Below are positions 2,807 through 19,439 of a DNA stretch of 20,411 nt, piece by piece (within the stretch, counting starts at the first letter, position 1; every line of letters begins with the position of its first letter). The notes below the pieces were generated by a model that was not told the DNA's origin, made no database searches, and worked only from the letters and a program-made list of their open reading frames with translations. The DNA lies in IMG/VR virus record IMGVR_UViG_3300031951_017410, positions 1-20,411 of that record, one strand, 5' to 3'. The position numbers and the translations under genes are program-made. The DNA comes from a virus.

Positions 2807-3169
2807 TTAGGCGGTGCGGGTGGTGTGAATTCGGAGGTGGGTGGCGGCGTTGTCCGACGGCGTCCAGGTGCGGCCGGTGGCCGGGTCGGGTGTTACCCGG
2901 TAGGTTTCCGTTCCGCGGCTGGTGGCGTGGTCGATTTCGTCTCCCTCGAGCGGCGTGAGTGGCTGGCCGTTGGCGGTCAGGTCGTTCCCCCGGATGATCC
3001 AGGTGGGAGCTAGGGGGGCCAAACTGGCCGGGTCTGCGGTGTCTGGTGTGGTGACGCGTTGGCCGCGCGTGGCCGTGAGGGAGATTGAGGTTCCCCCGCG
3101 GCGGTAGGTGATCTGCCGGCCGAGTGCGGCGCGGCCGGCAGATAAGAACGGCTCGAGGTTGAGCGGCAT
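2807..3169 (-). CDS. Head closure / head-tail joining protein
   Basis: The ATG at 3169 overlaps the TAA of the cement-protein gene (TAATG), giving 120 aa; the much longer open frame upstream is read against the capsid gene and is rejected. The protein begins MPLNLEPFLSAGRAALGRQI and continues with an RRGGTSISLTATRG strand pair. It then shows TWIIRGNDL and PLTPLEGDEIDHATSRGTETY before ending in RTWTPSDNAATHLRIHTTR. The W-x-I/V-x-x-x-D-L ... P-x-x-G-D-x-I ... Y-x-V ... W pattern is typical of phage head-tail joining/stopper proteins, which close the filled head. The position between capsid cement and tail terminator supports this. Confidence 0.7.
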   Translation of the reverse strand: MPLNLEPFLSAGRAALGRQITYRRGGTSISLTATRGQRVTTPDTADPASLAPLAPTWIIRGNDLTANGQPLTPLEGDEIDHATSRGTETYRVTPDPATGRTWTPSDNAATHLRIHTTRTA

Positions 3170-3576
3170 TAGAAGACGAGCGCAGCCGTGGCGTTGGCCG
3201 CGCTGGCGTTGCCGGCGGCGGAGTTCGTGGCGGTGAAGCCGATATAGCGGGGGCAATTGGTTGGCAGTCCGACGCGTTTTGAGGCCGCGGCGGCGCCGGT
3301 TCCGCCGGCTCCGGTCTGTACGAGCACACTGCCGGCAATGGTGACGGGGTTGGACAGGTCGGCGGCGGTCGAGCCGATTACCGAATAGGTGATTGTGGCG
3401 CCGTTCCCGAGTTGGCCGGTGGTCAGGGCGGGCGCTGAGATTTCCAGTTCGGTGTGCGCCGTCAGGTCGCCGCGGGTGCTGTTGCGGGTGTCGAGGCTGG
3501 TGCTGGTGACGGTGGCGGCGCCGTTGGGCAGGGCGCGGGTGAGCGACAGGGCAGCGTCGCGGGCGGTCATGGTCAT
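3169..3576 (-). CDS. Capsid cement/decoration protein, Bbp16-like
   Basis: Two closely spaced ATG codons (3576 and 3570) both fit; I take 3576, which has a GGA about nine bases upstream. An upstream TTG at 3600 is possible. The product is about 135 aa, rich in Ala, Thr, Gly and beta strands, starting MTMTARDAALSLTRALPNGA. It contains a strand-rich LGNGATITYSVIGS section, a SVLVQTGAGG turn, then P-x-x-C-P-R-Y-I-G-F and a closing ASAANATAALVF. The ...L/VPxxxxRYIGF...xGxxTAxLV layout is characteristic of Bbp16-type cement proteins that trim and stabilise capsids. It lies just downstream of the major capsid gene. Function is inferred from this pattern and position. Confidence 0.66.
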   Translation of the reverse strand: MTMTARDAALSLTRALPNGAATVTSTSLDTRNSTRGDLTAHTELEISAPALTTGQLGNGATITYSVIGSTAADLSNPVTIAGSVLVQTGAGGTGAAAASKRVGLPTNCPRYIGFTATNSAAGNASAANATAALVF

Positions 3577-3654
3577 TTGCGGGGTTCCGTTGGGGTGCAA
3601 AGAGTTGGAAGTCGGCTGGCGGCTGGGGTTCGGGCCTCAAAACACAGCGGCGGC

Positions 3655-4569
3655 CTACAGGGCGAGTTTTTCGGTGTCGAGGATGGAATCGGTGGGATAC
3701 AGGGGGATTCCGAATGATTCCGTGGGGATGGGGGCCGGGGCTCCCGTGGCGTTGGTGGCGGTGCGGCTGCGTTGGAGTTGATTCAGCGAGCGCCTCGAGA
3801 GGAACAGGGCGTCGGGGGGGCGGCCTACGGGAAATTTTGCGAGCAGGTCGGAAATGAGTCCGTCGGTGAGTCCCTTCCCGTTGTCGGTCGTCAGTTTTTT
3901 GATTCGGCCGACGGCGTAGCGTTCGCCGACCATCAGGCCGGGCCGGGACAGGATTTCTTGCCGGTAGGCGGTGTAGGGGTTGCCGGCGCCGTCGGTGACG
4001 CGGACGGTGGCAACTTCGGAGAGCGCCAATTCGCCTCCGTTCCCCCAGAGCCATTGGACTCCCTGGCCTCCCCAGCGAACGGCCCACACACTCGAGGCGA
4101 CGTCGTCAGTCGTGCCGCCGGCGTCGACGGTGAGAGCCGAGTCCAAAAAGTCGAGGAGTCCCGGGTGGCCTTTGGCCTGGCCGCCGGTGGCTTTGTTCCC
4201 GTAGTAGAATTGGCTGCCGAGCGTGACCATTGCGGCCTCCATCGCTCCGAGCGCCTCATTGGCCATTGCGGCGGCCGCGCCGTCTTCGTGGGAATCGGCA
4301 ACGGCTTTGTCGTATTCCCAGTAGGGATTGAGGATGTGACACGAGTAGAGGCGGTTTTCCCATTGGCTGAGGGAGGCGTTGCCGCCTTCGTTGGCGTTGC
4401 GGAAATTGGCCGTGGGGAGGTTGGAGCGGACCAGCGTGCGGAAATTGATTCCGGTGATGGTGCGGGCGGCTCCGAATTCAATCTCCGGGTGGGCTTTGAT
4501 GACGTCTTCGATGATGCCGACGACGGCGTCGGAGCCGTTTTGAATCGCGATATTGAGCAGCGTGGACAC
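3655..4569 (-). CDS. Major capsid protein
   Basis: The product is 304 aa and starts with GTG at 4569, preceded by AGAGG six bases upstream. Near the N-terminus it has AIQNGSDAVVGIIEDVIKAH and an FRTLVRSNLPTANFRNANEG segment. This is followed by a Y-S-C-H-I-L-N-P strand and DKAVADSHEDGAAAAMANEA. FYYGNKATGGQAKG comes next, and the C-terminal half carries an FPVGRPPDALFLSRRSLNQL region. These blocks match a recognised family of HK97-fold phage major capsid proteins near 300-330 aa. It sits between the protease/scaffold gene (58-bp gap) and the cement gene, as expected. As the most abundant virion protein it has its own clear ribosome site, unlike the coupled genes around it. Confidence 0.9.
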   Translation of the reverse strand: MSTLLNIAIQNGSDAVVGIIEDVIKAHPEIEFGAARTITGINFRTLVRSNLPTANFRNANEGGNASLSQWENRLYSCHILNPYWEYDKAVADSHEDGAAAAMANEALGAMEAAMVTLGSQFYYGNKATGGQAKGHPGLLDFLDSALTVDAGGTTDDVASSVWAVRWGGQGVQWLWGNGGELALSEVATVRVTDGAGNPYTAYRQEILSRPGLMVGERYAVGRIKKLTTDNGKGLTDGLISDLLAKFPVGRPPDALFLSRRSLNQLQRSRTATNATGAPAPIPTESFGIPLYPTDSILDTEKLAL

Positions 4570-4627
4570 AGGGGGCCTCTATTCGGAAGGGGGAGGAAGT
4601 GGTTGGCGTTTTGGGGCGTGGCGGTTG

Positions 4628-5830
4628 TCAGCGTTTCTGGAATTGCGTCGACAGGGCGGCGACCAGTCGGGCGCGGCCGTGGAGCGCGGGCGGCGGGGCG
4701 GCCGGGGGTGAGGCGGTGGCGAGCGGGGTCGTTCCGCGGGCGGATTTGAGCGCGGCGAGTTCGGCGGTGAGGGCTGCGGTGTGACGGTCGGCTGCCTCCT
4801 GGGGCGTGAGGCCGTCGGCCCAGTATTCGAGGCCGGCGGCTCCCCACCTGCGGCGGAATTCGCGGGCCTCGGCGCGGGCGTCGTCCGTGACAGAGCCGGG
4901 CGGGGCAATGTCTGCGGCGGGCTGTTCCGCGGGGTTGGGGTGGGAGGGCGTTTCAGTTGCGGCAGGGTTGGGCATGGGTTCGGGGATCGGGTCGGGGATT
5001 GGGTCGGGAATCGGGTCGGGAATTTGGTTGGGCAGCGGTTGATTCGGTTGGGAGAGGCTGAGTTGGTTGCGGCGCAGCCAGGCGGCAAAGAATTTGCGAG
5101 CGCGGGCCAGGTCGATTCCGGGCGGAGGCGTGGACGGCGTTTGGTTGGTGCGTCCGGTGATGTACGCGGTAGTCGTCTCCCAGTTGATGGGGTTGGCGGA
5201 GAACATACCGTCGGGGTTGGCGGCGGGTTCGTCGACGATGTCCGCGGCGTGGAGCCGGCGGAGCCGCGCGTGGGGCAGGTTGTTGGTGTTGTCGGGGTCC
5301 GGCGACACGAAAAACGGGTTGGAATTGTCGGTCAGAAAAGCGTTTTCGGCTTCGGGGTCGTGCGTAAAGCTGATCGAAACGCCAAAGAGGGTGGGGTCCT
5401 CGTCGGCCAGGTCGAGCAGGTAGCCGGGCAAATCTCCCTCGGGGGCCCGGGTGGCGGCGTCGAGGAAATGGATGTCGGCGCGGACGGTGTCTCCCTCGAG
5501 AAATGCGTCGGTGACGCGGCCGACGGCGCGGCCGAGTCCGTCGTTGCAGTAGTTGGGATGCGACCAGCGTGACTTGATTCCCTCGGGTCGGGCGTTGATG
5601 GCATCGACGACACTGGCCAGAAAACTGGCGTCGATCCACAGGCCGTGGCCAGACGCCTCTCCGCGGGTGACGATGGCGGCGCCTCGAATCCATCCGGCTC
5701 CGTAGCGGCCTCCGCGGTTGGGTTGGCCGGCCTCGGCGGTGGCCGTGGTCGTGGCGGGTCCGTCGGAGGGTTGCCAGTCGTCGTCGTGGTAGGAGAGGCC
5801 GCGGGCGGGGTCTGTTTGGAAGCGGGTCAT
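4628..5830 (-). CDS. Prohead protease with scaffold-like C-terminal region
   Basis: The product is 400 aa and its ATG at 5830 overlaps the portal stop (ATGA). Residues about 40-200 look like a capsid maturation protease: IKSRWSHPN (His near 91), VRADIHFLDAAT, and LFGVSISFTH with a candidate nucleophile Ser near 152. ADIVDEPAAN follows, a motif common in this protease class. After that comes a Pro-rich linker with a tandem I-P-D-P repeat (DNA 4983-5030), then a charged helical segment (ARAEAREFRRRWGAAGLEYW) and an Ala/Pro-rich end. The second half probably serves as the scaffold, the usual fused arrangement when no separate scaffold gene exists. Catalytic residues are assigned by pattern only. 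Confidence 0.82.
   Translation of the reverse strand: MTRFQTDPARGLSYHDDDWQPSDGPATTTATAEAGQPNRGGRYGAGWIRGAAIVTRGEASGHGLWIDASFLASVVDAINARPEGIKSRWSHPNYCNDGLGRAVGRVTDAFLEGDTVRADIHFLDAATRAPEGDLPGYLLDLADEDPTLFGVSISFTHDPEAENAFLTDNSNPFFVSPDPDNTNNLPHARLRRLHAADIVDEPAANPDGMFSANPINWETTTAYITGRTNQTPSTPPPGIDLARARKFFAAWLRRNQLSLSQPNQPLPNQIPDPIPDPIPDPIPEPMPNPAATETPSHPNPAEQPAADIAPPGSVTDDARAEAREFRRRWGAAGLEYWADGLTPQEAADRHTAALTAELAALKSARGTTPLATASPPAAPPPALHGRARLVAALSTQFQKR
4983..5030 (-). repeat. Four 12-bp tandem units coding an IPDP repeat in the protease linker
   Basis: Four 12-bp units, the last one degenerate, lie in frame in the protease/scaffold gene and encode repeated Ile-Pro-Asp-Pro. Because the period is a multiple of three, copy-number change would lengthen or shorten the linker without breaking the frame. 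It lies between the protease domain and the scaffold-like tail. Confidence 0.85.
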
Positions 5831-7260
5831 TGTGCGGCGTCCGTGGTGGTGGTGTCGGTGGGCGTCTGGTATCCGATTTGGGCGGAGAGGCCGGCGGCGG
5901 TGAGTTCGTCCCGTTCCCGGGCCAGTTCGGTCACGATTTCGGACCAGTCCTGTCCCTGGGCGGCGAGAATGCGGGTCCGGCTTGTCAGTTGCGCTTGGAG
6001 TGCGAGCGTGTCGGCTTGGACTTCGCGAAGCGGGTCAATCCAGGGGACTCCGTTGGGGATCCATCGCCAGGGGCGGGCGGTCAGGTCGAGTGGTGGCAGG
6101 GCTCCGGCCGTGATCCATTGTTCGAGTTTCCATTGGGTGATTCTGTGCAAGAGTGCGAGCGTGGCGCGCCTCTTTTGGCTGGCGGACAGGTCGTATTGAA
6201 TCCAGGCCTGCCGCGCGCCGCTGAAATTGGTGAAGTTTTCGGAGTGGAACGAAAAGGGAATGTCCAGGGCCTTCAGAGCCGACGCGGTGACGGCGGAAAA
6301 CCAGCTTTGAAACTCTCCGGCCGGGGATTTGCTCTCGAGGATTTCGGCTTTGTCGCCGGCGTCTAAGTCGAGTTGGTACGGGCCTCGAGAAAAGTCGACG
6401 GCCAGGGCGTCTCCGTCGTCGGTGGTGGCGGGCGCGAGCGGGTCGGAGGAATTGCGGTACAGGGCCAGTCCGAAGAGTTGGCCGATTTTCATTTTGGCGA
6501 GCGAATAGGCTTTGGCGTCGGCCAGGTCGCGGAGGTCGGTCAGCGCGGCTGCAAATGGGGAGATACCGCGGGTGGAGTCAAAACGCCAGAAATAGGCGTG
6601 CAGGTGGAGGTCCTGGGCGTCGACGATGCGGTCGAACGTCCATCCTTGGGCGCCGGGGGCCCGGTCGTTGGGCGTGGAGCGTTTGCAGATTGCGTAAGCC
6701 AGGGGTTTGCCGGCGGAGTCGGTGGCGACTCCGTGCGACCAGATGGCGAGGCCGGTTTGATTGGGCGGAATTCCGCCGGGCGGCGTTCGGATCCGGTCGG
6801 ATTCAATGGCTTGGAGCCGGCCGTCGGTGAGAAACACAATACCGACGTCTCCGTCGATGGTGCGATGTGCTTCTGCGAGGCGAATCAGGTCGGGAAGGGC
6901 GATTTTTCCCGCGGCGTTGCAGGCCTCGGGATCCTCCGCCCATTGGTTCCAGAGGCGTTCGATACGGGTATTGAGTTGCGGCGAGTCCGTTTTGGCCTGA
7001 AACGCGAACGTGGCGACGTAGTCGAGGTGCCGGCGGAGCATCCATCCGGCGAGGGAGTAGTTGCGTTGCAGGTCCCGGGATTCCGCGAGCAATTGGCGGC
7101 GGCGGTCCGGCGTGAGTTCGGCGTCTTCGTGGCGGAGGATTGGCGGGGCGTGCCGGCGCAGGGGCGACGGCTCCGCGGCGTCATAACTCCAGGCACGTTG
7201 AGCGGCGCGGACGGCGGCCAGGCCGGCGCGGCTGAGGCGCTCGAGGGGCGTGGGGCTCAT
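5827..7260 (-). CDS. Portal protein, lambda gpB-like
   Basis: The product is 477 aa. The ATG at 7260 overlaps the stop of the gpW-like gene (ATGA), so the open frame further upstream is rejected. The N-terminal part has SRDLQRNYSLAGWMLRRHLD followed by FAFQAKTDSPQLN and a W-N-Q-W-A-E-D segment. The middle includes DGDVGIVFLTDGRLQAIESD, RIVDAQDLHLHAYFWRFDST and RGISPFAAALTDLRDLADAK. Near the end come SFHSENFTNFSGARQAWIQY and PWRWIPNGVPWIDPLREVQA. These are the standard blocks of lambda-type portals, including Y-S-x-x-G/R and the P-W-I-D-P-x-K/R-E block. Twelve copies would form the DNA entry channel at one capsid vertex. Confidence 0.93.
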   Translation of the reverse strand: MSPTPLERLSRAGLAAVRAAQRAWSYDAAEPSPLRRHAPPILRHEDAELTPDRRRQLLAESRDLQRNYSLAGWMLRRHLDYVATFAFQAKTDSPQLNTRIERLWNQWAEDPEACNAAGKIALPDLIRLAEAHRTIDGDVGIVFLTDGRLQAIESDRIRTPPGGIPPNQTGLAIWSHGVATDSAGKPLAYAICKRSTPNDRAPGAQGWTFDRIVDAQDLHLHAYFWRFDSTRGISPFAAALTDLRDLADAKAYSLAKMKIGQLFGLALYRNSSDPLAPATTDDGDALAVDFSRGPYQLDLDAGDKAEILESKSPAGEFQSWFSAVTASALKALDIPFSFHSENFTNFSGARQAWIQYDLSASQKRRATLALLHRITQWKLEQWITAGALPPLDLTARPWRWIPNGVPWIDPLREVQADTLALQAQLTSRTRILAAQGQDWSEIVTELARERDELTAAGLSAQIGYQTPTDTTTTDAAQ

Positions 7261-7469
7261 CGGGTGGGGCCTCCGAGATTCATCCGGAAAAGTCGGGGGC
7301 GGGTGTTGTTTTCTACGGCCGCGCGGTTTTTCCAGTAGGTGTGTGTGCGGTCGCGGTCGGCGAGGCTGGCAAAAGTGACGGTTTGGCCGTCGACAGTGGC
7401 GGAGAGCGTGAGCGGGTTGGCAAGGATGGCGGCTTCGAGGGCGGCGACAATGGCGGCGGCGTTGTTCAT
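7257..7469 (-). CDS. gpW-like head-tail connector
   Basis: The start is taken at ATG 7469, which overlaps the TGA of the peptidase gene (ATGA); a start four codons further upstream is possible but breaks the coupling pattern. The product is 70 aa, close to the 68 aa of lambda gpW. It begins MNNAAAIVAALEAAILANPL, then has a short beta hairpin (VDGQTVTFAS) and a helix with DRTHTYWKNRAA. The helix-hairpin-helix layout, the size and the place directly before the portal all match gpW. In lambda this protein closes the filled head and prepares it for tail joining. Confidence 0.7.
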   Translation of the reverse strand: MNNAAAIVAALEAAILANPLTLSATVDGQTVTFASLADRDRTHTYWKNRAAVENNTRPRLFRMNLGGPTR

Positions 7470-8377
7470 GCGGCCACCCATTTTTGATAATCGCGCGGCT
7501 CAAACCCCTCATAGGCGGACAGGGCCCATGAGTCGGGTTGACGGGCGAGCATGTTGTGGGCGTCGCGGGCGCGTACCCAAAATGAGCCGGCGGGTTGGTC
7601 TTCGGGCCAGGTCGGCCCGGTGATCCAGTCGGGTCCCCAACTATTGAGGCAGAGCAAGGCCGGCTCCGGCCTCGTTTCGTCGGCGGCAATGAATGTCATA
7701 CAGTGGGGCCAGGTGCCGCGGGCCTCGGCGTATCCTCCGGCGGTCCGGCGGTCGGAAAATCCCTGATTGGAGCAGACGTAGACGGGATAGCCGGCGGCGA
7801 TGGCGTCGCGGGCGTCTTCGTAGGTGGTCACGAGCGAGGTGGTGAGCAGCCGATGGCGTTTGGCCTCCGGCTCGAGGTCGTTGGGGGCTCCGGCCCGGGG
7901 TGCGCCCCATTGGCGGGAGCGAGAGCCGTCGTATTGGCGCAGGTCGTGGCCGTTGGGGTATTGGCGCTGGAATACGATTCCGTAGAGCCGGACGGCGTCG
8001 GCCGCCCAACTGCCGGTTGATCCGTCTCCGGCTCCGAGACGGCCGCGGCCGATTTCGACGCGGCTGGCGGCGTAGATCCATTCGGGCGACGGGTCGCCGG
8101 GCCAGGTGATGGGGTGGGATTGGTCCAGGGCGGCGACGGCGACGGCGAGCGCTGCGGCTTTGGCGGCTCCGTGGCCTACGCAATCCCCGACGGTTTGGTC
8201 GTTGGGTCGCAGCGTTCGGCCGGCGGCTTTGTGGTAGACACGGTAAAGCGGGGAGAATTTACCGCGGCCGATGTCGCGGCCGGTCCAGGCCGCAATTCGA
8301 TAGAGCGGCGTCGGACTTGTCGCCAGTGTGCGGCCGACGGCCTCGGCGTTCCAGGTCCATCCCATCGGGCCGATCAT
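7466..8377 (-). CDS. Papain-like (C1 family) cysteine peptidase
   Basis: The product is 303 aa and the ATG at 8377 overlaps the upstream stop (ATGA). Three blocks appear in the order required for papain-like peptidases: NDQTVGDCVGHGAAKA with nucleophile Cys66 and a candidate oxyanion Gln61, TWPHCMTFIAAD with His225, and LCLNSWGPDWITGP with Asn245. The last is the classical N-S-W-G-x-x-W block. No signal peptide or propeptide is obvious, so it may act in the cytoplasm, in the virion, or after lysis. It lies between an exported Ig-like protein and the gpW-like connector, inside the packaging/head operon. A peptidase here, in addition to the separate prohead protease, is unusual. A role in virion maturation, lysis or host-protein cleavage is conjecture. 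Confidence 0.8.
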   Translation of the reverse strand: MIGPMGWTWNAEAVGRTLATSPTPLYRIAAWTGRDIGRGKFSPLYRVYHKAAGRTLRPNDQTVGDCVGHGAAKAAALAVAVAALDQSHPITWPGDPSPEWIYAASRVEIGRGRLGAGDGSTGSWAADAVRLYGIVFQRQYPNGHDLRQYDGSRSRQWGAPRAGAPNDLEPEAKRHRLLTTSLVTTYEDARDAIAAGYPVYVCSNQGFSDRRTAGGYAEARGTWPHCMTFIAADETRPEPALLCLNSWGPDWITGPTWPEDQPAGSFWVRARDAHNMLARQPDSWALSAYEGFEPRDYQKWVAA

Positions 8378-9132
8378 TGGCGACGACTCCAGGCGTCGAG
8401 GCCGGCGGCGATTTCTCGCCAGGCGGTGGCGAGGTCGGTGGCGGTGGAGAGTCCCGGGGCGGTCTCGAGGCCGGCGAGGGTGCGGGCGAGCGGTTCGAAC
8501 AGCAGAGGCAGGAGGCGGGCGCGGTGTTCTCCGAGCGTGGCGCGGTTGGCCTCGGCGGTCTGGCGGCGGATTTGGTCGGGCGTCTGCCAGGTGGGGTCGC
8601 CGGCGGCGATGCGGCGCGCGGCGTTGTTGTAATTGGTGGCAATGGCGGCGATGAGCGGTCGGTCGGTTGGCGGCAGGGCGCGACAGAGCGCGAGCGTGGT
8701 CGCGGCGAGGTTGTAGCGGCCAGCGTCCGGCGCCGGGATGGGGTCGGGGCTGGGGTCCGGTCCCGGCGCCGGGGCTGGGTCGGTCCCGGTCAGCGTGATT
8801 TGATGTTCCGCGAGCACAAGGGCGGCTGAATCGGCGGCGGCGGCGACAAATGTGTATTGGCCGGGCTGCGGGCTGGCAAATGTGACCGTGCGGCCGTTGG
8901 TGTCGGTCCGCCAGGTGGACGGGTTGCCGGCGGCAAGAATCCAGGCGGTTTTCGGCGCGGTCGTCCGGGCCGTGAGCGTGACCAGCGTCCCGGCCGGGGC
9001 GGTCGCCGGGCCTTCAATCTCGAGTTGGGGGAGTGGTCCCGGTTCGGGCGAGGGCGACCAGTCGCCGGGGCCCGGGGATTGGGCGGCGGCTGCGGCGAGC
9101 AGGATGGCGAGCCAGGCGGTGGCAGTGCGCAT
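8374..9132 (-). CDS. Exported protein with Ig/PKD-like domain and Pro-rich linker
   Basis: The ATG at 9132 forms TGATG with the stop of the upstream gene, giving 252 aa. Residues 1-20 (MRTATAWLAILLAAAAAQSP) are a signal peptide with no lipobox Cys. A Pro-rich spacer follows, then a domain of about 80 residues: EIEGPATAPAGTLVTLTART, TNGRTVTFASPQPGQYTFVA and AEHQITLTG. The G-x-Y-x-F/V-x-x-x-A pattern is typical of PKD/Ig-like folds. After a second Pro-rich linker the C-terminal 100 residues are helical. I do not know the function. Its coupling to the C1 peptidase suggests a joint role at or beyond the membrane or on the virion. Confidence 0.68.
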   Translation of the reverse strand: MRTATAWLAILLAAAAAQSPGPGDWSPSPEPGPLPQLEIEGPATAPAGTLVTLTARTTAPKTAWILAAGNPSTWRTDTNGRTVTFASPQPGQYTFVAAAADSAALVLAEHQITLTGTDPAPAPGPDPSPDPIPAPDAGRYNLAATTLALCRALPPTDRPLIAAIATNYNNAARRIAAGDPTWQTPDQIRRQTAEANRATLGEHRARLLPLLFEPLARTLAGLETAPGLSTATDLATAWREIAAGLDAWSRRQ

Positions 9133-9467
9133 CAGGCGAGGTCCCATTTGGTCAACTCGTCGGCGATTTGCGCGCGGTCCTGGGGCGCGGCGCGGCGTTG
9201 GGCCTCGAGCAGCGCAGTAAGTGCGGCTTCGACGCGGTGCGGTGTCGGCCGTTCTCCGCGCTCGCGGAGTTCGCGGCGGATGGCTCCGCGGAGTAAGGCG
9301 GTTTCAGCCAAGCCGGGGTTGCCAGTGATGGCGGCGGCGGCGGGTGTTTTGTTCCGGCATTGCGCGACCAGTCCGACCAGTGCGGCCAGGGCGGCGGCAA
9401 TGGTGGCCGGGTCGAGGCCGACAGCGTGTTGTTCCAGATCGGTTTCGAGGTCGGCGAGGTTGTGCAT
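9132..9467 (-). CDS. Small helical protein of unknown function
   Basis: The product is 111 aa, beginning MHNLADLETDLEQHAVGLDP. One moderately hydrophobic helix (ATIAAALAALVGLVAQCRNK) is followed by two amphipathic helices, the last rich in Arg, Gln and Ala. It is translationally coupled to the exported Ig-like gene by TGATG. A holin or other small membrane protein is possible because of the hydrophobic stretch and the position in the cargo block, but there is only one weak candidate membrane segment and I do not assign a function. Confidence 0.6.
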   Translation of the reverse strand: MHNLADLETDLEQHAVGLDPATIAAALAALVGLVAQCRNKTPAAAAITGNPGLAETALLRGAIRRELRERGERPTPHRVEAALTALLEAQRRAAPQDRAQIADELTKWDLA

Positions 9468-9503
9468 GGGAACTGGTAAGAGATGCTTACAGGTTGGCGG
9501 GGA

Positions 9504-9704
9504 TCAGCGGCGACGGTGTCGCGTCGTGGTTTTGGTGATTGTGGTTCGGGTCGTGGTGCTGGTGGTCGCGCGGGGGGGAGCCGGGCAGTTGCCGGCGGAG
9601 CAGGTTGCGCGATGGCGTTCGATGCGCGTGGAGGCGTGGGCGGCGGTGGTCAGCGCCAGCAGGCACAGGCAGAGCAAAGCGGCAAAGAGCGTGGTGAGGC
9701 GCAT
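9504..9704 (-). CDS. Small exported basic protein
   Basis: The product is 66 aa with ATG at 9704. The first 24 residues are a strong signal peptide, with hydrophobic core TLFAALLCLCLLALTTA and A-H-A before the likely cleavage site. The mature part is about 42 residues, very rich in Thr and Arg, with two Cys in a C-S-A-G-N-C turn and a basic Thr/Arg tail. I recognise no family. It is the first gene after a 150-bp gap that contains a candidate promoter and palindrome, so it may open the late transcript for the cargo block. Confidence 0.5.
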   Translation of the reverse strand: MRLTTLFAALLCLCLLALTTAAHASTRIERHRATCSAGNCPAPPRATTSTTTRTTITKTTTRHRRR

Positions 9705-9757
9705 AGGCGGAAAATGGGGGAGTGTGCGAGCGGCGGACGGGTGAAGCGTTCGGCGCG

Positions 9758-9792
9758 ATCATAGCGGGAGACAGTCGGCGGCGCGACAATTG
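9758..9792 (-). promoter_or_regulatory. Candidate promoter with overlapping palindrome
   Basis: On the minus strand a TTGTCG (9787-9782) and a TATGAT (9763-9758) are separated by 18 bp. This is a fair sigma70-type match in an otherwise GC-rich gap. The -35 overlaps a perfect 10-bp palindrome GACAATTGTC at 9783-9792, which could be an operator. It would transcribe the small exported gene at 9704 and the packaging/head genes downstream. Confidence 0.35.
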
Positions 9793-9854
9793 TCAGAGCG
9801 TTCCGACGGAAATTTGAGTGGAAAATAAGGCGGTTTGGTGTTTGTTGGCGGGAG

Positions 9855-10103
9855 TTATGCGGGGTCCGGGTCGCGGCCTTGAAAAGTGAGCGTTCGGTCA
9901 ATGCGCGTCTGGCCGCAGTGGGTGCATTGGACGCGTTGGCGGCAAATGGCGTCGAACGGTTGGCCGTTGGCGTCCAGGCCGGCAAATGGTTGGTACTGCT
10001 TGCGGCCGAGTTTGATTGAGTCCGTGGAGGAACAGCGTGGGCAGCGGCTGGCGACGGCGTCGGATTGTTCTCGGACGTTTTTGGCTCCCTTGGGTCGGCT
10101 CAT
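9855..10103 (-). CDS. Zinc-ribbon protein
   Basis: The ATG at 10103 overlaps the stop of the large terminase (ATGA), giving 82 aa. It starts MSRPKGAKNVREQSDAVASR and carries two Cys pairs, C-P-R-C and C-T-H-C, about 40 residues apart, which would bind one zinc ion. Between them is a basic and aromatic stretch (IKLGRKQYQPFAGLD). Small zinc-ribbon proteins beside terminases are common in phages, where they may bind DNA or act with packaging or transcription. No specific function can be claimed. Confidence 0.72.
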   Translation of the reverse strand: MSRPKGAKNVREQSDAVASRCPRCSSTDSIKLGRKQYQPFAGLDANGQPFDAICRQRVQCTHCGQTRIDRTLTFQGRDPDPA

Positions 10104-12190
10104 GCGTAGCGTACTCCTCTCCGGCGGCGGCCGGTGTTGGGTTGCGTGGTGGGTTGCGCGGTGAGCGGGCAGCCGGCGACGGACGCGGCGACGGCTGACA
10201 GGATGAGAGCGTCCCAAAGGTGATTGTCGGGGGCCGTTGGGCGTGCGGTCCATTCGTCGATTGTGCGGCCGCGGCCGGTGACGCGTCGCCGGTATTCGGC
10301 GGCCAGGTGGTCACACAGCATTTCGTGGGGTCGCGGGTCGGTGCCGGGCAGCGTGATGGCGGCCGCGGCGGTCAGCGGCAGGGCCAGGCGGTCGGCCACT
10401 ATGGATTTCCAGGCGTTTACGTCGATTTGCAATGTCCGGGGTTCGCCTCGGGTCGGCGCGGGGAGTCGCCAGCAGTGGCCGGCGAGGTCTCCGGGTTTGT
10501 GGTTCCATTCGGCCATTGGGCGTGAGCCGGCGCCGACAAAGCGGCCGCGGGAGGGCGTGGCGTGGATCGTGCGGCCGTTGGGCAGGTTGCAGACGCGGAA
10601 TACCGCGGATTCCGATTGGTTCCAGTTGCAATCGATGAGCGTGCGGCCGATGGTGAGTTGTTCGCCGGCGGGATTGGTCCAGGGGAGTCCGGCGAGGTGT
10701 CCGGCGAGGGCGTCCAGGCCGGCGGCGATTTGATCTTCGAGGGTTTGGCCGGGATATGCGGTGGCGAGAGTTTTTCGGAGGCTGGCGAGGCTGGCGTATT
10801 CGGCGGTTTGCCGGGGCCAGATACCATAATCGAGGATGGCCGCGCCGAAGCCGGCCGACCAGGCGGCGACCACCCACCAAAGAGAGCTCTGTTGGACGTC
10901 GATTCCGGCGGTGATCCAGTGGGCCTCGGCTGGGGCCCGGTGACGCGGCTGGCCGTTGAGCCGGGTGGCGAGGGCCCGGTTGTTGAGTATCGACGCGGTT
11001 TCGGCGCCGTCGCGGAGCGGGTCGTTTTGGTACTCGGCCAAAAAGGCCTTGTCTCCCTTGTCGAAGCGGAGATTGTAGGCGTTTTGAAGTGCCGATAGTT
11101 CGTTGGGTGCGTGTCGTTCGGGCCAGGCGAGCACGGCGCCGGCGTCCATCGTGGGGCGGTGGGTCTGGTAGAAGTCGTTTTCCGGTCCGGGGGTGGTGCC
11201 GGCGAGCATGGCGGCGGCGCGGATGTCTTTGTACTGCGTCCAGAGTTCGGAGGCTTTGGGGTCGGTTGGCCAGGTCTGGACAAGTTTGGTTCGAATCCCT
11301 TTCCATTCGGGGTGTTTGGCGTGGTCTAGAAAGCGGTCGGCCAGGTCGTCGGGTTCGATTACCGTGCACGGCATGACGGCGGCCAGGCTCTTGCCGGGGC
11401 CGGCGAGGCCAAGCACGGTTTGCAAGATGAGCGCCTCTCGTTGGGCGTTGCCCGCTGGGGATTTGGCGCTTTGGTCGGTCTGGGGGTCGTCGATGATGAC
11501 GAGGTCAGGCCGGAGGCTGCGGCCGTCGGGGGTGATCCATTTGCGGCCGCGGATACTGCCGGTGAGGCCGGCCGTGGCCAGCAGGCTGCCGGCCGTCGGC
11601 GAGGGCGGCAGGTTGGGCAGGGCGAGGGTTTCGGCGGTCAGTTTCTGGACGATGGGGGTTCCGTTCCACAACAGGCGGCGTTGGGAAATACCCTCGAGCC
11701 GCCGGAGCGGGTAACAGGTGGCCGGAAAGTCGGCCGCGAGGTCCTCGTTTCGGCTGAAGGTTTGCGCGAGCGCTTGCAGGGAGGTGGCGGCGTGTTGAGC
11801 CGTGGCGCAGATCAGCAGGACGAATTTCCGGGTGCCGCGGAGAATGGCCCATTCTGCGGCGGCTTCGCAAAGTGAGGTTTTGCCTGAACCGCGGGGCATG
11901 GCGACGGCGATTTGTCCCCCGTGCAGGATGGTGGTCTCGAGGGCGGCAATTACGCGGCGATGGTCCGCGGAGAATGGCAGGTCAAAGATTTTGGGTTTGT
12001 AGGTTTTGCAATAAAACTCAAGCGACGCGAGCGCGGCCGCGCGGCGTTTGAGGCTTTTGGGCCTGGGGCAATCGGGAGCAATTTCCCGGGAGGCGGCTGA
12101 TTTGAGACGCGAGGCCGCCGCGGCCTTGGTTTTGTGCCGCGTGTAGGCAGTGTTGCGCGTGGTGTGTGATGGCGCGGCGGAGGGAAACAT
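10100..12190 (-). CDS. terL: Terminase large subunit, GpA-like
   Basis: The product is 696 aa and the ATG at 12190 forms TGATG with the small-subunit stop. The ATPase domain has Walker A M-P-R-G-S-G-K-T-S near 98-106 and Walker B L-V-I-I-D-D near 230-235. A C-A-T-A-Q motif near 128-132 is a likely coupling element. The nuclease domain is in the C-terminal half, with GID at 429-431 followed by VQQ, LIDCNWN with Asp520, and DNHLWDAL with Asp660; these are the expected acidic residues. Length and order match the lambda gpA-type packaging motor, which cuts concatemers and pumps DNA through the portal. The basic N-terminal 50 residues may contact the small subunit. Confidence 0.93.
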   Translation of the reverse strand: MFPSAAPSHTTRNTAYTRHKTKAAAASRLKSAASREIAPDCPRPKSLKRRAAALASLEFYCKTYKPKIFDLPFSADHRRVIAALETTILHGGQIAVAMPRGSGKTSLCEAAAEWAILRGTRKFVLLICATAQHAATSLQALAQTFSRNEDLAADFPATCYPLRRLEGISQRRLLWNGTPIVQKLTAETLALPNLPPSPTAGSLLATAGLTGSIRGRKWITPDGRSLRPDLVIIDDPQTDQSAKSPAGNAQREALILQTVLGLAGPGKSLAAVMPCTVIEPDDLADRFLDHAKHPEWKGIRTKLVQTWPTDPKASELWTQYKDIRAAAMLAGTTPGPENDFYQTHRPTMDAGAVLAWPERHAPNELSALQNAYNLRFDKGDKAFLAEYQNDPLRDGAETASILNNRALATRLNGQPRHRAPAEAHWITAGIDVQQSSLWWVVAAWSAGFGAAILDYGIWPRQTAEYASLASLRKTLATAYPGQTLEDQIAAGLDALAGHLAGLPWTNPAGEQLTIGRTLIDCNWNQSESAVFRVCNLPNGRTIHATPSRGRFVGAGSRPMAEWNHKPGDLAGHCWRLPAPTRGEPRTLQIDVNAWKSIVADRLALPLTAAAAITLPGTDPRPHEMLCDHLAAEYRRRVTGRGRTIDEWTARPTAPDNHLWDALILSAVAASVAGCPLTAQPTTQPNTGRRRRGVRYA

Positions 12191-12531
12191 CAGGAGTTCG
12201 CGAGGTGATCAATTTCGCGGAGGGTGCGCAGGGCGGAGGCAAAATCTCCCACTTCGATTTGTCGGCGGTACAGGTCACGAGCGGCTAAAAACACCCATCC
12301 GCGGACGGTGTCGGCGTCTGGGTGGGCGTGGGCGCGGCAGAATGAATAGGCGGCGTCCATCAGCTTTTTAGGGTCACGGTCGGGAAATTTGGTCGCGGCG
12401 GCTTCGCAAACGTCGGCGTCTGGGGCTCCGGAAATGAGCCATTGGACGATCTGGTGAACGATTTCCGGAGCAATGGGTTCACATTTGATCGCGCCAGTAT
12501 TTGGCGATTTGTCCCGGCGATTGGTCGGCAA
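12190..12531 (-). CDS. Terminase small subunit-like protein
   Basis: The frame starts with TTG at 12531 and gives 113 aa. No in-frame ATG or GTG exists nearby, so the start is uncertain, and this start overlaps the preceding gene by 53 bp. The sequence has a helical HTH-like section (IVHQIVQWLISGAPDADVCE), then a block DPKKLMDAAYSFCRAHAHPD followed by TVRGWVFLAARDLYRRQIEV. The end is FASALRTLREIDHLAN. The pattern matches a class of short phage DNA-packaging small subunits located just before the large subunit. It would bind the packaging site and load the motor. Confidence 0.7.
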   Translation of the reverse strand: MPTNRRDKSPNTGAIKCEPIAPEIVHQIVQWLISGAPDADVCEAAATKFPDRDPKKLMDAAYSFCRAHAHPDADTVRGWVFLAARDLYRRQIEVGDFASALRTLREIDHLANS

Positions 12532-16760: not shown

Positions 16761-16838
16761 TTATTGCTCGGAGTTGGCCGTGGCGTAAAACAGCGCGACG
16801 ACAGCGACCAGCAGGGCCAGCAATTGGGCGGCGGTCAT
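16761..16838 (-). CDS. 25-residue membrane peptide
   Basis: The ATG at 16838 overlaps the stop of the HTH gene (ATGA), and the TAA is at 16763-16761. The peptide starts MTAAQLLALLVAVVALFYAT and ends in a short polar tail (ANSEQ), so nearly the whole length is one hydrophobic helix. It is too short for normal gene callers. The coupled start supports translation. Small phage membrane peptides often act in lysis, lysis timing or superinfection exclusion, but the early position does not single one out. Confidence 0.5.
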   Translation of the reverse strand: MTAAQLLALLVAVVALFYATANSEQ

Positions 16839-17038
16839 TGAGTGCGGGCGAGCCGGTGCAGGTCCGGCCAGGGGATTCTTTTGTCGGCTCCCAGCGTCAC
16901 GGCTGACAATCGGCCGGCTCTGAGCGCCTCGTAAATCGTGGTCCGTGAGACGGCCAGGAAGGCGGCGGCCTCGGTGATTCGGGCGAGTCCCTCACGTGGC
17001 CAGGTCGTGGGGCGTCGAGTGGGTTTGGCGTGTCTCAT
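16835..17038 (-). CDS. Small MerR-type HTH protein (excisionase/regulator-like)
   Basis: I start at ATG 17038, giving 67 aa; an upstream TTG at 17065 would add nine residues. After a basic N-terminus comes the HTH_17 pattern: G-L-A-R-I-T-E-A-A-A-F-L-A-V-S-R-T-T-I-Y and then ALRAGRLSAVTLGADKRIPW. A final DLHRLA follows. This is the winged helix used by excisionases and small phage regulators. It opens the early operon after a 170-bp gap with repeats, so it may regulate early genes or act as the recombination directionality factor. Confidence 0.72.
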   Translation of the reverse strand: MRHAKPTRRPTTWPREGLARITEAAAFLAVSRTTIYEALRAGRLSAVTLGADKRIPWPDLHRLARTQ

Positions 17039-17215
17039 GCGGGCATGATACTGCCGGTTTGTCAAAAACAGCGAAAAAACTGGTGGCGGTACAGGGCGCC
17101 TGTGTACAGGCCTTGCGGCGTGGGCACAGTGTCGGCGCGTTGTCGGCGCGTTGTCGGTACGGTCGAAAAACTTGGAAAAAAATGGTCGCCAGCGAGCGGC
17201 GGGGGTTGACAGTGT
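17039..17215. promoter_or_regulatory. Early-region gap with inverted and 11-bp tandem repeats
   Basis: No gene is supported in this gap upstream of the small HTH gene. It contains an inverted repeat ACAGG-GCG-CCTGT at 17091-17103. It also has a tandem repeat of period 11: GTCGGCGCGTT at 17131-17141 and 17142-17152, with a partial third unit. A period near one helical turn suits protein binding on one face. I see no convincing -35/-10 pair, so the early promoter here remains undetermined. Confidence 0.4.
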
Positions 17216-17556: not shown

Positions 17557-17844
17557 TCAGTTCGGGATTTTTGAGTCGGTCCGTTCGATCCCGGTGGTTG
17601 TTCGGTCGGAATACCAGAATTTGAGCGGTGTGACGTGCGGGCCGAAATGGTAACCGGCGTCGTCGATGTGGAATGTGGTCCAGGGCGAGGGGGTGCCGGG
17701 CGTTGGGGGCAGGGCCTCGAGAGTGTTCGGCGTGTTGGGGCGCGGCGATGCGTTGGCCGTGGGTTGAGTCGGTCGCCAGGTCGTGACGGTCGAGAGGGCC
17801 AGGCCGGCGGCGATTGCGAGCGCGGTAGCGGTTTCGAGTTTCAT
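17557..17844 (-). CDS. Small exported or membrane-anchored protein
   Basis: The start is taken at ATG 17844 (95 aa). The longer open frame that runs through the att site reads tRNA sequence in antisense and is not real there. Residues 1-22 (MKLETATALAIAAGLALSTV) form a signal or anchor segment. A Pro/Thr-rich linker follows and then a short globular part with TTFHIDDAGYHFGPHVTPLK and F-W-Y-S-D. No family is recognised. Its start codon lies on one of the two GTTAGC arm-like repeats beside attP. Confidence 0.52.
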   Translation of the reverse strand: MKLETATALAIAAGLALSTVTTWRPTQPTANASPRPNTPNTLEALPPTPGTPSPWTTFHIDDAGYHFGPHVTPLKFWYSDRTTTGIERTDSKIPN

Positions 17845-17865
17845 GTTAGCTGGGGTGTTAGCTGG
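17844..17865. repeat. Left pair of integrase arm-like repeats
   Basis: Two copies of TGTTAGCTGG (17844-17853 and 17856-17865) repeat directly with a 12-bp period. A matching pair with the same spacing lies on the other side of the att core (18060-18081). This fits arm-type integrase binding sites. Confidence 0.55.
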
Positions 17866-17954
17866 CTGTGGCGCGGGGTGGTTGTGTGTGGCGTGGAGCA
17901 AGTCGTATTGCAGGGCGGTGGCGGACGGTGCCGGACGGTGGCGGCCGTCAAAAG

Positions 17955-17999
17955 GGACTTTTAATCCGTAGGTCCTGGGTTCGAATCCCAGCCGAGTCA
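17955..17999 (+). other. attP core: 3' half of tRNA-Lys(UUU)
   Basis: On the plus strand the sequence carries the anticodon loop CTTTTAA (anticodon TTT at 17960-17962), a TCC stem side and the T arm CTGGG-TTCGAAT-CCCAG at 17975-17991. The acceptor 3' strand ending GAGTCA at 17999 follows, with no CCA. To the left of 17955 the match to a tRNA ends: the anticodon stem gains a G-G mismatch and there is no D arm. This is the identity block a phage keeps so that integration at the 3' end of a host tRNA-Lys gene restores the tRNA. Phage genes lie on both sides, so it is attP. Confidence 0.82.
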
Positions 18000-18000
18000 T

Positions 18001-19221
18001 TCAATTTTCCCGGTTTTCGGCCGGGGTTTGTTGTTGGTCGGCGTTCGGGTTGGGGGTCAAGTTAGCAAAAGTGTTAGCTGGTGTCTCTTGGATAACGTTT
18101 TGGGGCTCACCGGGGGGAGTTGCCGGCGCGAGGGGTTGCAGGTCGGTCCAGAGTTCTCGCGCGGAGGCCAGGGCGTCGGCGGTGGCGTAATAGGTGAGGG
18201 TTGTTTGTATGGATCGGTGGCGCATTAGCAGTTGGAGGAGAGCGGGGCGGACATGGGGAGCCAGGCGGAGGGCAAAGGTCCGGCGGAGGTCGTGGGCGCT
18301 CGCCCATTTGCGCGGCGAGTCACTGACGACGATTCGGGCGAGTTTGCCAAGTCGGCTGATGGTCTTGGAGACGGTGTCGAGCCGTTCGAGCCGGCGGCCG
18401 TTGGCGTCAAGCGGGCGGAAAACCTTTCCGCGGCGTCGGTCCGGCGGAGTTTGGGCAAAGAATTGGGCGGCGTCCGGCGTGAGCGGCAGAATCGAGGCGC
18501 GGCGGCTTTTGTCCGTCCCGGCGTCAATTTCAAGGGTTGGCGGATTGGTCCAGGCCAGGCGGATTGGCGGGGCGGTCCAGTCCAGGGCCAGGGCCTCGGA
18601 GAGTCGGAGACCGGTAAGGTACAGGCCGCGGATCAGGTGGCGCCAGGTCGGGCCAGATTCTCCGAGTGTGTCGGCGGCGGCTTCGAGGCGGTCGAGCTCC
18701 TCCTGAGTGATTGGTCGGCCGCGGGCCCGGTGGACGTTCGCGGGCGTCGGCGGCATGGGTGGGACGGTTGGGAAATACTGGTGAGCGGCCGCCCATTTGG
18801 CGAGCGTGGAGAGATTGCGCAGGTGGCCGGCAATGGTGGATTCGGAGCGATTGGCGGCGCGCAGCGCGGCGACAAAGCCGGCAAGCGTGGTTGTGTTCAG
18901 TCCGGCGGGTTTTGTGGGTCGGCATTGGGCGGTGAATTTGTCGAGAGTGGTCTGGATTTTGGCGCGGCTGGCGGCGGCCAGGGCGGGCCATTTGGCGGCC
19001 TTGTACGCGGAGACCATATCCGACCAGGTGGCGGAGGTCGGTTGGAGTCCGGCGGCCAGTTCCGCGGCCAGTTTTCCCGCGGCTCTCTCGGCGGCGCGGC
19101 GGTCGGAGGTTTTGAGCGTCTTGGTCCGTTTGCGGCCGGTCGCCGGGTCGAGCCATTGCGCGACATAGTGGGGCCGGTCCGCGGGGCGGAATACGGTCAG
19201 TCTCGGGGCGGCGGCGTCCAT
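18001..19221 (-). CDS. int: Tyrosine recombinase integrase
   Basis: The start is taken at ATG 19221 (406 aa), overlapping the HTH gene by 25 bp. The N-terminal arm-binding domain carries HYVAQWLDPATGRKRTKTLK. The core-binding SAM-like domain follows at about 85-190 (TWSDMVSAYKAAKWPALAAA). The catalytic domain shows the complete set: TGLRLSEALALDW (Arg), DKSRRASILPL (Lys), AHDLRRTFALRL (His-x-x-Arg), LLMRHRSIQTT (His) and TLTYYA (nucleophile Tyr). The stop codon is two bases from the att core. It would integrate the phage into host tRNA-Lys and, with a directionality factor, excise it. Confidence 0.93.
   Translation of the reverse strand: MDAAAPRLTVFRPADRPHYVAQWLDPATGRKRTKTLKTSDRRAAERAAGKLAAELAAGLQPTSATWSDMVSAYKAAKWPALAAASRAKIQTTLDKFTAQCRPTKPAGLNTTTLAGFVAALRAANRSESTIAGHLRNLSTLAKWAAAHQYFPTVPPMPPTPANVHRARGRPITQEELDRLEAAADTLGESGPTWRHLIRGLYLTGLRLSEALALDWTAPPIRLAWTNPPTLEIDAGTDKSRRASILPLTPDAAQFFAQTPPDRRRGKVFRPLDANGRRLERLDTVSKTISRLGKLARIVVSDSPRKWASAHDLRRTFALRLAPHVRPALLQLLMRHRSIQTTLTYYATADALASARELWTDLQPLAPATPPGEPQNVIQETPANTFANLTPNPNADQQQTPAENREN
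18060..18081. repeat. Right pair of integrase arm-like repeats
   Basis: AGTTAGCAAA (18060-18069) and TGTTAGCTGG (18072-18081) repeat directly with a 12-bp period, inside the 3' end of int. Their spacing and core GTTAGC equal those of the left pair, placing arm-like sites on both sides of the att core. Confidence 0.5.
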
Positions 19222-19439
19222 TGGCGGAGCAATTCGAGCAGGTCGTCGGAGAGAATAAACGCGTGGCGGGTTCCGGGGCGGATGATTCGGAGGCCCGTGG
19301 CCTCCCAGCTTTTGACGGTGCGGCGCGAAAATACCCGGCACAGGTCGGCCAACAAATACACCTCCCCACTACGGAAAAAGGGCGTGGGGGGGGTTGGCGG
19401 CTTGGGTTGCCCGGGTCGGAGTGTGGGCGTAGAATCCAT
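19197..19439 (-). CDS. MerR-type HTH protein upstream of int
   Basis: I start at ATG 19439 because GAGGA lies seven bases upstream (plus-strand 19447-19451). This gives 80 aa, and longer open frames upstream lack support. After a Pro-rich N-terminus comes an HTH_17-like domain, GEVYLLADLCRVFSRRTVKS followed by WEATGLRIIRPGTRHAFILS. A last helix DDLLELLRQW closes the domain. It is translated just before int with an overlap, so it is likely an excisionase/directionality factor or a regulator of integration. A palindrome upstream (19481-19499) could be its own operator. Confidence 0.72.
   Translation of the reverse strand: MDSTPTLRPGQPKPPTPPTPFFRSGEVYLLADLCRVFSRRTVKSWEATGLRIIRPGTRHAFILSDDLLELLRQWTPPPRD

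Follow-up and report, generated by a model that had tools for sequence, protein, structure and literature searches.

We have identified, in a 20,411-bp stretch of viral DNA (the window), what is almost certainly the lambda-type attachment site (attP) of a temperate tailed phage whose hosts are freshwater-type Planctomycetaceae, located at positions 17845–18081 and probably used for integration at the anticodon loop of a host tRNA-Lys(UUU) gene. The virus record is a linear contig of 20.4 kb, an orphan that the site links to a narrow group of hosts and to a mechanism already described. The site also belongs to a natural arm-site family, comprising 36 loci linked to tRNA genes and about 20 free attPs, whose members share one constant geometry while their sequence varies along with a few residues of the integrase. 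The features referred to below are:

16835–17065, minus strand: HTH_17 protein, candidate excisionase (Pfam HTH_17, 4e-7; weak PHROG excisionase matches, 2.5e-4 and 8.6e-4)
17557–17844, minus strand: small ORF with its start codon abutting the left arm (no Pfam match)
17845–17865, plus strand: putative left (P) arm, two direct GTTAGCTGG units with a 12-bp period (10 integrated relatives, and the element in genome G168, have a same-hexamer pair at their distal end)
17955–17999, plus strand: attP core, 3'-half of tRNA-Lys(UUU), from the anticodon stem-loop to the discriminator base (45/45 against host loci L002 and L003)
17958–17964, plus strand: anticodon loop CTTTTAA with GGA/TCC flanks, probable 7-bp crossover (overlap) region (from the onset of host identity, the relatives and the arm midpoint)
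18061–18081, plus strand: putative right (P') arm, GTTAGCAAA and GTTAGCTGG units with a 12-bp period, within the 3'-end of the integrase gene (12-bp pairs in 36/58 tRNA loci of integrase relatives)
18001–19221, minus strand: tyrosine integrase of about 406 aa with predicted arm-binding, core-binding and catalytic parts (Pfam PF00589, PHROG phrog_1, AlphaFold)
19197–19439, minus strand: small HTH-like gene just upstream of the integrase gene (homologue beside the integrase gene in phage contig L142)

The Attachment Core

Exact matches to the core (GGACTTTTAATCCGTAGGTCCTGGGTTCGAATCCCAGCCGAGTCA) were found at only two loci among 84,980 genomes, L002 and L003, both in metagenome-assembled genomes of uncultured Planctomycetaceae. 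Each is a complete tRNA-Lys(UUU) gene, the 3'-part of which is identical to window positions 17955–17999 over 45/45 bp. Extension against these loci places the left border of core/host identity at exactly 17955, and the right border at 17999 in L002 and two bases beyond in L003. A preliminary description of this DNA had placed a 45-bp tRNA-Lys(UUU) 3'-half beside the integrase stop and had proposed looking for a block of identity that stops where the tRNA does, at its 3'-end; its coordinates proved exact, and so did the length and end of the block. The integrase stop codon, at 18001–18003, begins one base past the core. ARAGORN detected no complete tRNA in the window and the tRNA 5'-half is absent. 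Within the host family, only four of the 170 genomes contain a core with up to two mismatches. A search of IMG/VR for the exact core yielded zero matches. RNA folding gave an unconvincing result for a terminator after the core (z −1.6).

Host identity starts within the anticodon stem both in the window and in integrated relatives, which is consistent with a crossover at the anticodon loop.

Arm Repeats

The hexamer GTTAGC occurs five times in the window, against a chance mean of 4.0, and four of these copies form two pairs with a 12-bp period, at 17845/17857 and 18061/18073. The pairs had been reported earlier at precisely these positions, with the minor correction that three of the four units read GTTAGCTGG and the first right-hand unit matches as GTTAGC only; a dense, genome-wide distribution of such pairs, which would have counted against their being arm sites, was not found. 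The pairs form part of a longer repeat, 17841–17865 and 18057–18081, with 20 of 25 positions the same at an offset of 216 bp, and their common midpoint is 17963, within the anticodon loop. Equally spaced pair-core-pair arrangements, built from any 6-mer, arose in only 2 of 2000 dinucleotide shuffles.

Between the left arm and the core, at 17916–17944, lies a GC-rich tandem repeat of 10 bp (CGGTGGCGGA, 2.9 copies), possibly a candidate site for an accessory protein (IHF/HU or Xis) or else a mere effect of composition.

The Integrase

The AlphaFold model of the integrase (pLDDT 86) starts with three strands (E7-10, E19-23 and E30-34) followed by a helix (H40-57), and its best fold match is the full-length lambda integrase structure 1z1b, with 5j0n also matching. 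Residues R205, K237, R312, H334 and Y344 of the catalytic site are invariant in alignments A1 and A2, and H309 is present in at least 90% of their rows (trimmed numbering in each case). The protein therefore combines the catalytic R-K-H-R-H and Tyr residues of lambda-type integrases with a modelled N-terminus of three strands and a helix, and its attachment site carries shared-motif arms on both sides. The Pfam arm-binding models failed to recognise the window integrase, and DUF4102, a mark of the P4/IntSXT subgroup, is not among the Pfam families matched by the window protein or by members of A1.

Integrated Relatives in the Host Family

Relatives of the integrase (E ≤ 1e-10) are present in 79 of the 170 genomes of the family to which the L003 host belongs. 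An integrase was found in neither of the two genomes with an exact core, and no integrated prophage of this very phage was detected; the integrated elements are relatives with integrases that are about 30–40% identical. At 54 of 86 scanned loci, the window itself included, the integrase stop faces the 3'-end of an intact tRNA gene, and the adjacent tRNAs include those for Thr, Asn, Cys, Arg, Lys, Leu, Ser, Pro, Met, Gln and Phe, among others. A repeat pair with a 12-bp period (at 8/9 identity or better) lies about 70 bp from the tRNA in 36 of 58 tRNA-bearing loci, with other periods occurring three times at most; at 9/9 identity, period 12 is seen in 21 loci, period 9 in one and the rest in none. 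About a third of the loci with integrase relatives show no clear 12-bp pair, and some of these may be decayed or more distant.

For 12 elements, up to 60 kb past the integrase gene was fetched in a search for the far end, and in 11 of these a second copy of the tRNA 3'-part was located 9–59 kb away. Beside this copy, 10 elements carry a 12-bp pair with the element's own hexamer and one carries a degenerate pair, the hexamers differing between elements (GTTAGC, GTTACC, GGTACC, GTCAGT, GTTGTG and others). Integrated relatives, including that of G168, have an intact tRNA gene at one end and a fragment at the other. The two ends of these elements hold the parts of the attP in the window, separated by integration. 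The arm-site reading of the preliminary description, based there on spacing and position, is strongly supported by the conservation across the integrase family of the 12-bp pair, its position and the use of one hexamer at both ends.

Two genomes carry elements in the equivalent tRNA-Lys(UUU) gene. In G167 (C1063) the core has one mismatch, the tRNA is followed by GTGTTAGCCAAATCGTTAGCTGG and then by a related integrase C-terminus, with ASARELW as in the window, at which point the G167 contig stops; this relative bears the same GTTAGC arms. G168 (C219) has both attL and attR at the same tRNA-Lys(UUU) gene. Each end of its element has a ATTCACCC pair, and the tRNA 5'-half is missing from its attR. 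The host flanks of the two are 88.7% identical, and the same locus is occupied in the two genomes by different elements with different hexamers, GTTAGC and ATTCACCC.

Genome G161 (contig C1) shows two integrase copies at a tRNA-Met gene, at 223090–224178 (L070) and 259259–260347 (L012), about 36 kb apart. Each contains one in-frame TAG within the matched stretch, and they are apparently a tandem pair of inactivated elements.

Free Viral Relatives and Arm Spacing

Searches with the single integrase sequence yielded nothing in IMG/VR or in INPHARED (50,697 phage records), and profile A1 was therefore used in IMG/VR, where it retrieved 56 integrase loci. Convincing pair-core-pair sites were recognised in about 20 viral contigs. 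Some of the free attPs carry a tRNA 3'-half, as in the window, and others a 5'-half in the opposite orientation (for example tRNA-Met in L133 and tRNA-Lys in L147). The two kinds coincide solely in the anticodon stem-loop, and this supports a crossover there. Users of the 5'-half, with the integrase gene at the tRNA 5'-side, include L130, L131, L133, L147, L157, L159 and others in IMG/VR, and L016, L075, L098 and L114 in the genomes; a phage of this kind would need to provide the tRNA promoter.

The distances between the pairs fall into classes about 10.5–10.75 bp apart, a phasing equalled by none of 2000 uniform nulls when all 30 sites are taken and by 2 of 2000 for the 21 viral sites. Since kinship between sites reduces their effective number, this argues strongly, though not conclusively, for a requirement that the two arms lie on one face of the helix.

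Integrase Residues and Hexamer Bases

A global test of N-terminal identity against arm similarity was unspecific (partial r 0.09, 75/500 permutations; 0.15 for the catalytic domain), and a single-column test was consequently used in which the rest of the protein served as an internal control. The covariation set comprised 41 integrases with assigned arms, the hexamers and their register having been assigned by hand, and the counts ignore kinship. The most informative columns were 73, 91 and 53 for base 3 of the hexamer and 59, 62, 51 and 57 for base 5, and they lie mostly in the predicted arm-binding domain. Glu73 occurs with C at base 3 (10/10), Thr73 with T (15/18) and Tyr or Pro at 53 with T (14/14), while G at base 5 occurs solely with Gln62 (9/9) and never with Arg or Lys at that position (0/25). 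Among separate viral loci, Tyr or Pro at 53 again accompanies T at base 3 (7/7), as does Thr73 (10/11), Glu73 never does so, and G at base 5 is found only with Gln62 where residue 62 can be aligned. The window, with Pro53, Gln62, Thr73 and GTTAGC, is consistent with this pattern. In the AlphaFold model, residues 51, 62 and 73 are located in the three strands, with 53 and 59 beside them in the loop that joins strands 1 and 2 (numbering here is that of the model plus 41).

It seems reasonably probable that these correlations reflect a readable code, in which residues 53 and 73 set base 3 and residues 51, 59 and 62 set base 5, while the 12-bp period, the two units per arm and the helical phase are fixed. 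Given the unspecific whole-domain test, the manual assignment of hexamers and the disregard of kinship, the code is a lead and not a proof. If it is true, arm sites, and hence the att compatibility of elements sharing one tRNA gene, would be predictable from integrase sequences alone. Because the layout is rigid while the hexamer follows a few residues of the integrase, the rules of arm-site recognition become testable; recognition of arms by integrase N-terminal domains, studied so far in a handful of phages, can now be addressed directly. The family also supplies candidate integrases for planctomycetes.

Proposed Mechanism and Alternative Explanations

We propose that the N-terminal domain of the integrase would grip the two GTTAGC pairs while its core-binding and catalytic domains grip the anticodon stem-loop of the core, with the arms folding back onto the core to form one nucleoprotein complex. 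Strand exchange would then occur inside the 7-bp anticodon loop (17958–17964) of the host tRNA-Lys(UUU) gene, the 45-bp 3'-half of the phage restoring the tRNA and the displaced host half passing to the far end of the prophage.

The preliminary description had considered the DNA to be a free, circular or tandem form in which the attP is unsplit, with phage genes on both sides. The attP is indeed unsplit, because the tRNA 5'-half is absent and phage genes are present on both sides, with terminase, portal and head genes to the left and, to the right, the small HTH gene that has a homologue by the integrase gene of L142. Left pair, core, right pair and integrase gene are contiguous, whereas the same parts are divided between the ends of integrated relatives. 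The contig is linear and no end overlap exceeding 10 bp was found; a packaged linear genome would account for it just as well as a circular or tandem form. The linear record, with no end repeats detected, could also be accommodated if the contig were an end of an integrated prophage or a decayed remnant, with an attP that is not really unsplit. This is highly improbable given the missing tRNA 5'-half, the contiguity of left arm, core and right arm, which in integrated relatives are split 9–59 kb apart, the head and terminase genes on the left, and the intact catalytic residues of the integrase. Host genes just beyond the integrase gene, on the right, would have counted against an unsplit attP; none were found, and that position is occupied by the small HTH gene. 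An intact attP is also held by a tandem lysogen, and the window could then derive from the internal junction of two prophage copies in a chromosome, for which G161, where a single tRNA has two integrase copies some 36 kb from each other, provides a parallel. We consider this unlikely: host sequence is absent from the window and, together with the about 20 similar free sites in viral contigs, this makes free phage DNA the simpler reading.

The GTTAGC pairs themselves might be operators for a regulator or encode a conserved protein motif (ANTFAN, at the integrase C-terminus), given that the right pair lies in the integrase reading frame with a period of four codons and the small ORF has its start codon directly against the left pair. 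Conservation of the right pair at the protein level was rejected, because its translation varies freely in relatives in which the DNA repeat is preserved, and in L012, L079 and L106 the pair lies at or downstream of the integrase stop. A second pair with the same hexamer at the end remote from the integrase gene, the tracking of the hexamer with the integrase's own residues and the helical phasing of the distance across the core argue further against either function, and we judge both to be very improbable by comparison with arm sites for the integrase.

Comparison with Known Systems

Like the integrase and attP of phage lambda, the window system has a three-domain tyrosine integrase, arms flanking the core and a probable 7-bp overlap; unlike lambda, its core is half of a tRNA gene and each arm has two direct units, all four being co-oriented with a 12-bp period. 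In mycobacteriophage attPs (L5, Giles and Cluster K phages such as CrimD, and Pixie and Tweety in tRNA-Lys), paired arm sites flank a tRNA or tmRNA core, and related integrases differ in their arm consensus, for which residues 17 and 19 have been proposed as determinants; Cluster K1 phages, at tmRNA, carry 11-bp repeat pairs with the right pair inverted (PMC3203893). The window family differs from these in its planctomycete hosts, its fixed 12-bp period and direct orientation, and a much wider variety of hexamers. Parts of a report on Oenococcus oeni IntF and IntB-F prophages describe integrases that are divergent N-terminally, otherwise similar, and matched to different direct arm repeats (PMC8074189); that set consists of few close integrases, and a residue-base assignment was not found in those parts of the report. 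Direct paired arms, tRNA-Lys cores and arm specificities differing among related integrases are therefore already known (PMC3203893, PMC8074189), while we found no description in the literature of a family in planctomycetes that combines a constant 12-bp geometry with helically phased arms and a candidate residue-base code.

The N-terminal arm-binding (AB) domain of Tn916-type tyrosine recombinases consists of three beta-strands and one helix (PMC8138268), an arrangement shared by the model of the window integrase even though the Pfam arm-binding models miss the protein. In the anticodon-centred ('A' site) tRNA islands of Islander, the tRNA fragment of the attP restores the gene and crossover occurs at the anticodon loop; both kinds of attP are present, the 5' kind being rare, 159/3919 (PMC4383910). 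The window does not differ in kind from these islands, and among the related viral contigs there are many attPs with a 5'-half, a kind apparently far commoner here than the 4% of Islander.

Genes around the Site

To the left of the core are genes for the candidate excisionase (HTH_17), an HD-domain protein, the terminase large subunit (GpA nuclease domain), the portal and the major head protein. In phage contig L142, the homologue of the candidate excisionase lies on the same side of the attP as in the window, and on the opposite side of the integrase gene from the small HTH homologue. The small ORF abutting the left arm also exists in a longer form (17557–18000) that starts in the core and opens with MTRLGFEPRTYGLKV, the antisense tRNA read as protein; the real start is likely to be 17844, directly against the left arm pair.

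A sister contig, L004, is 98.5% identical across window positions 2810–12343. In the region 12190–12531 (L004 260–601) identity falls to about 45–53% at the protein level, and this marks a sharp mosaic boundary beside the terminase gene.
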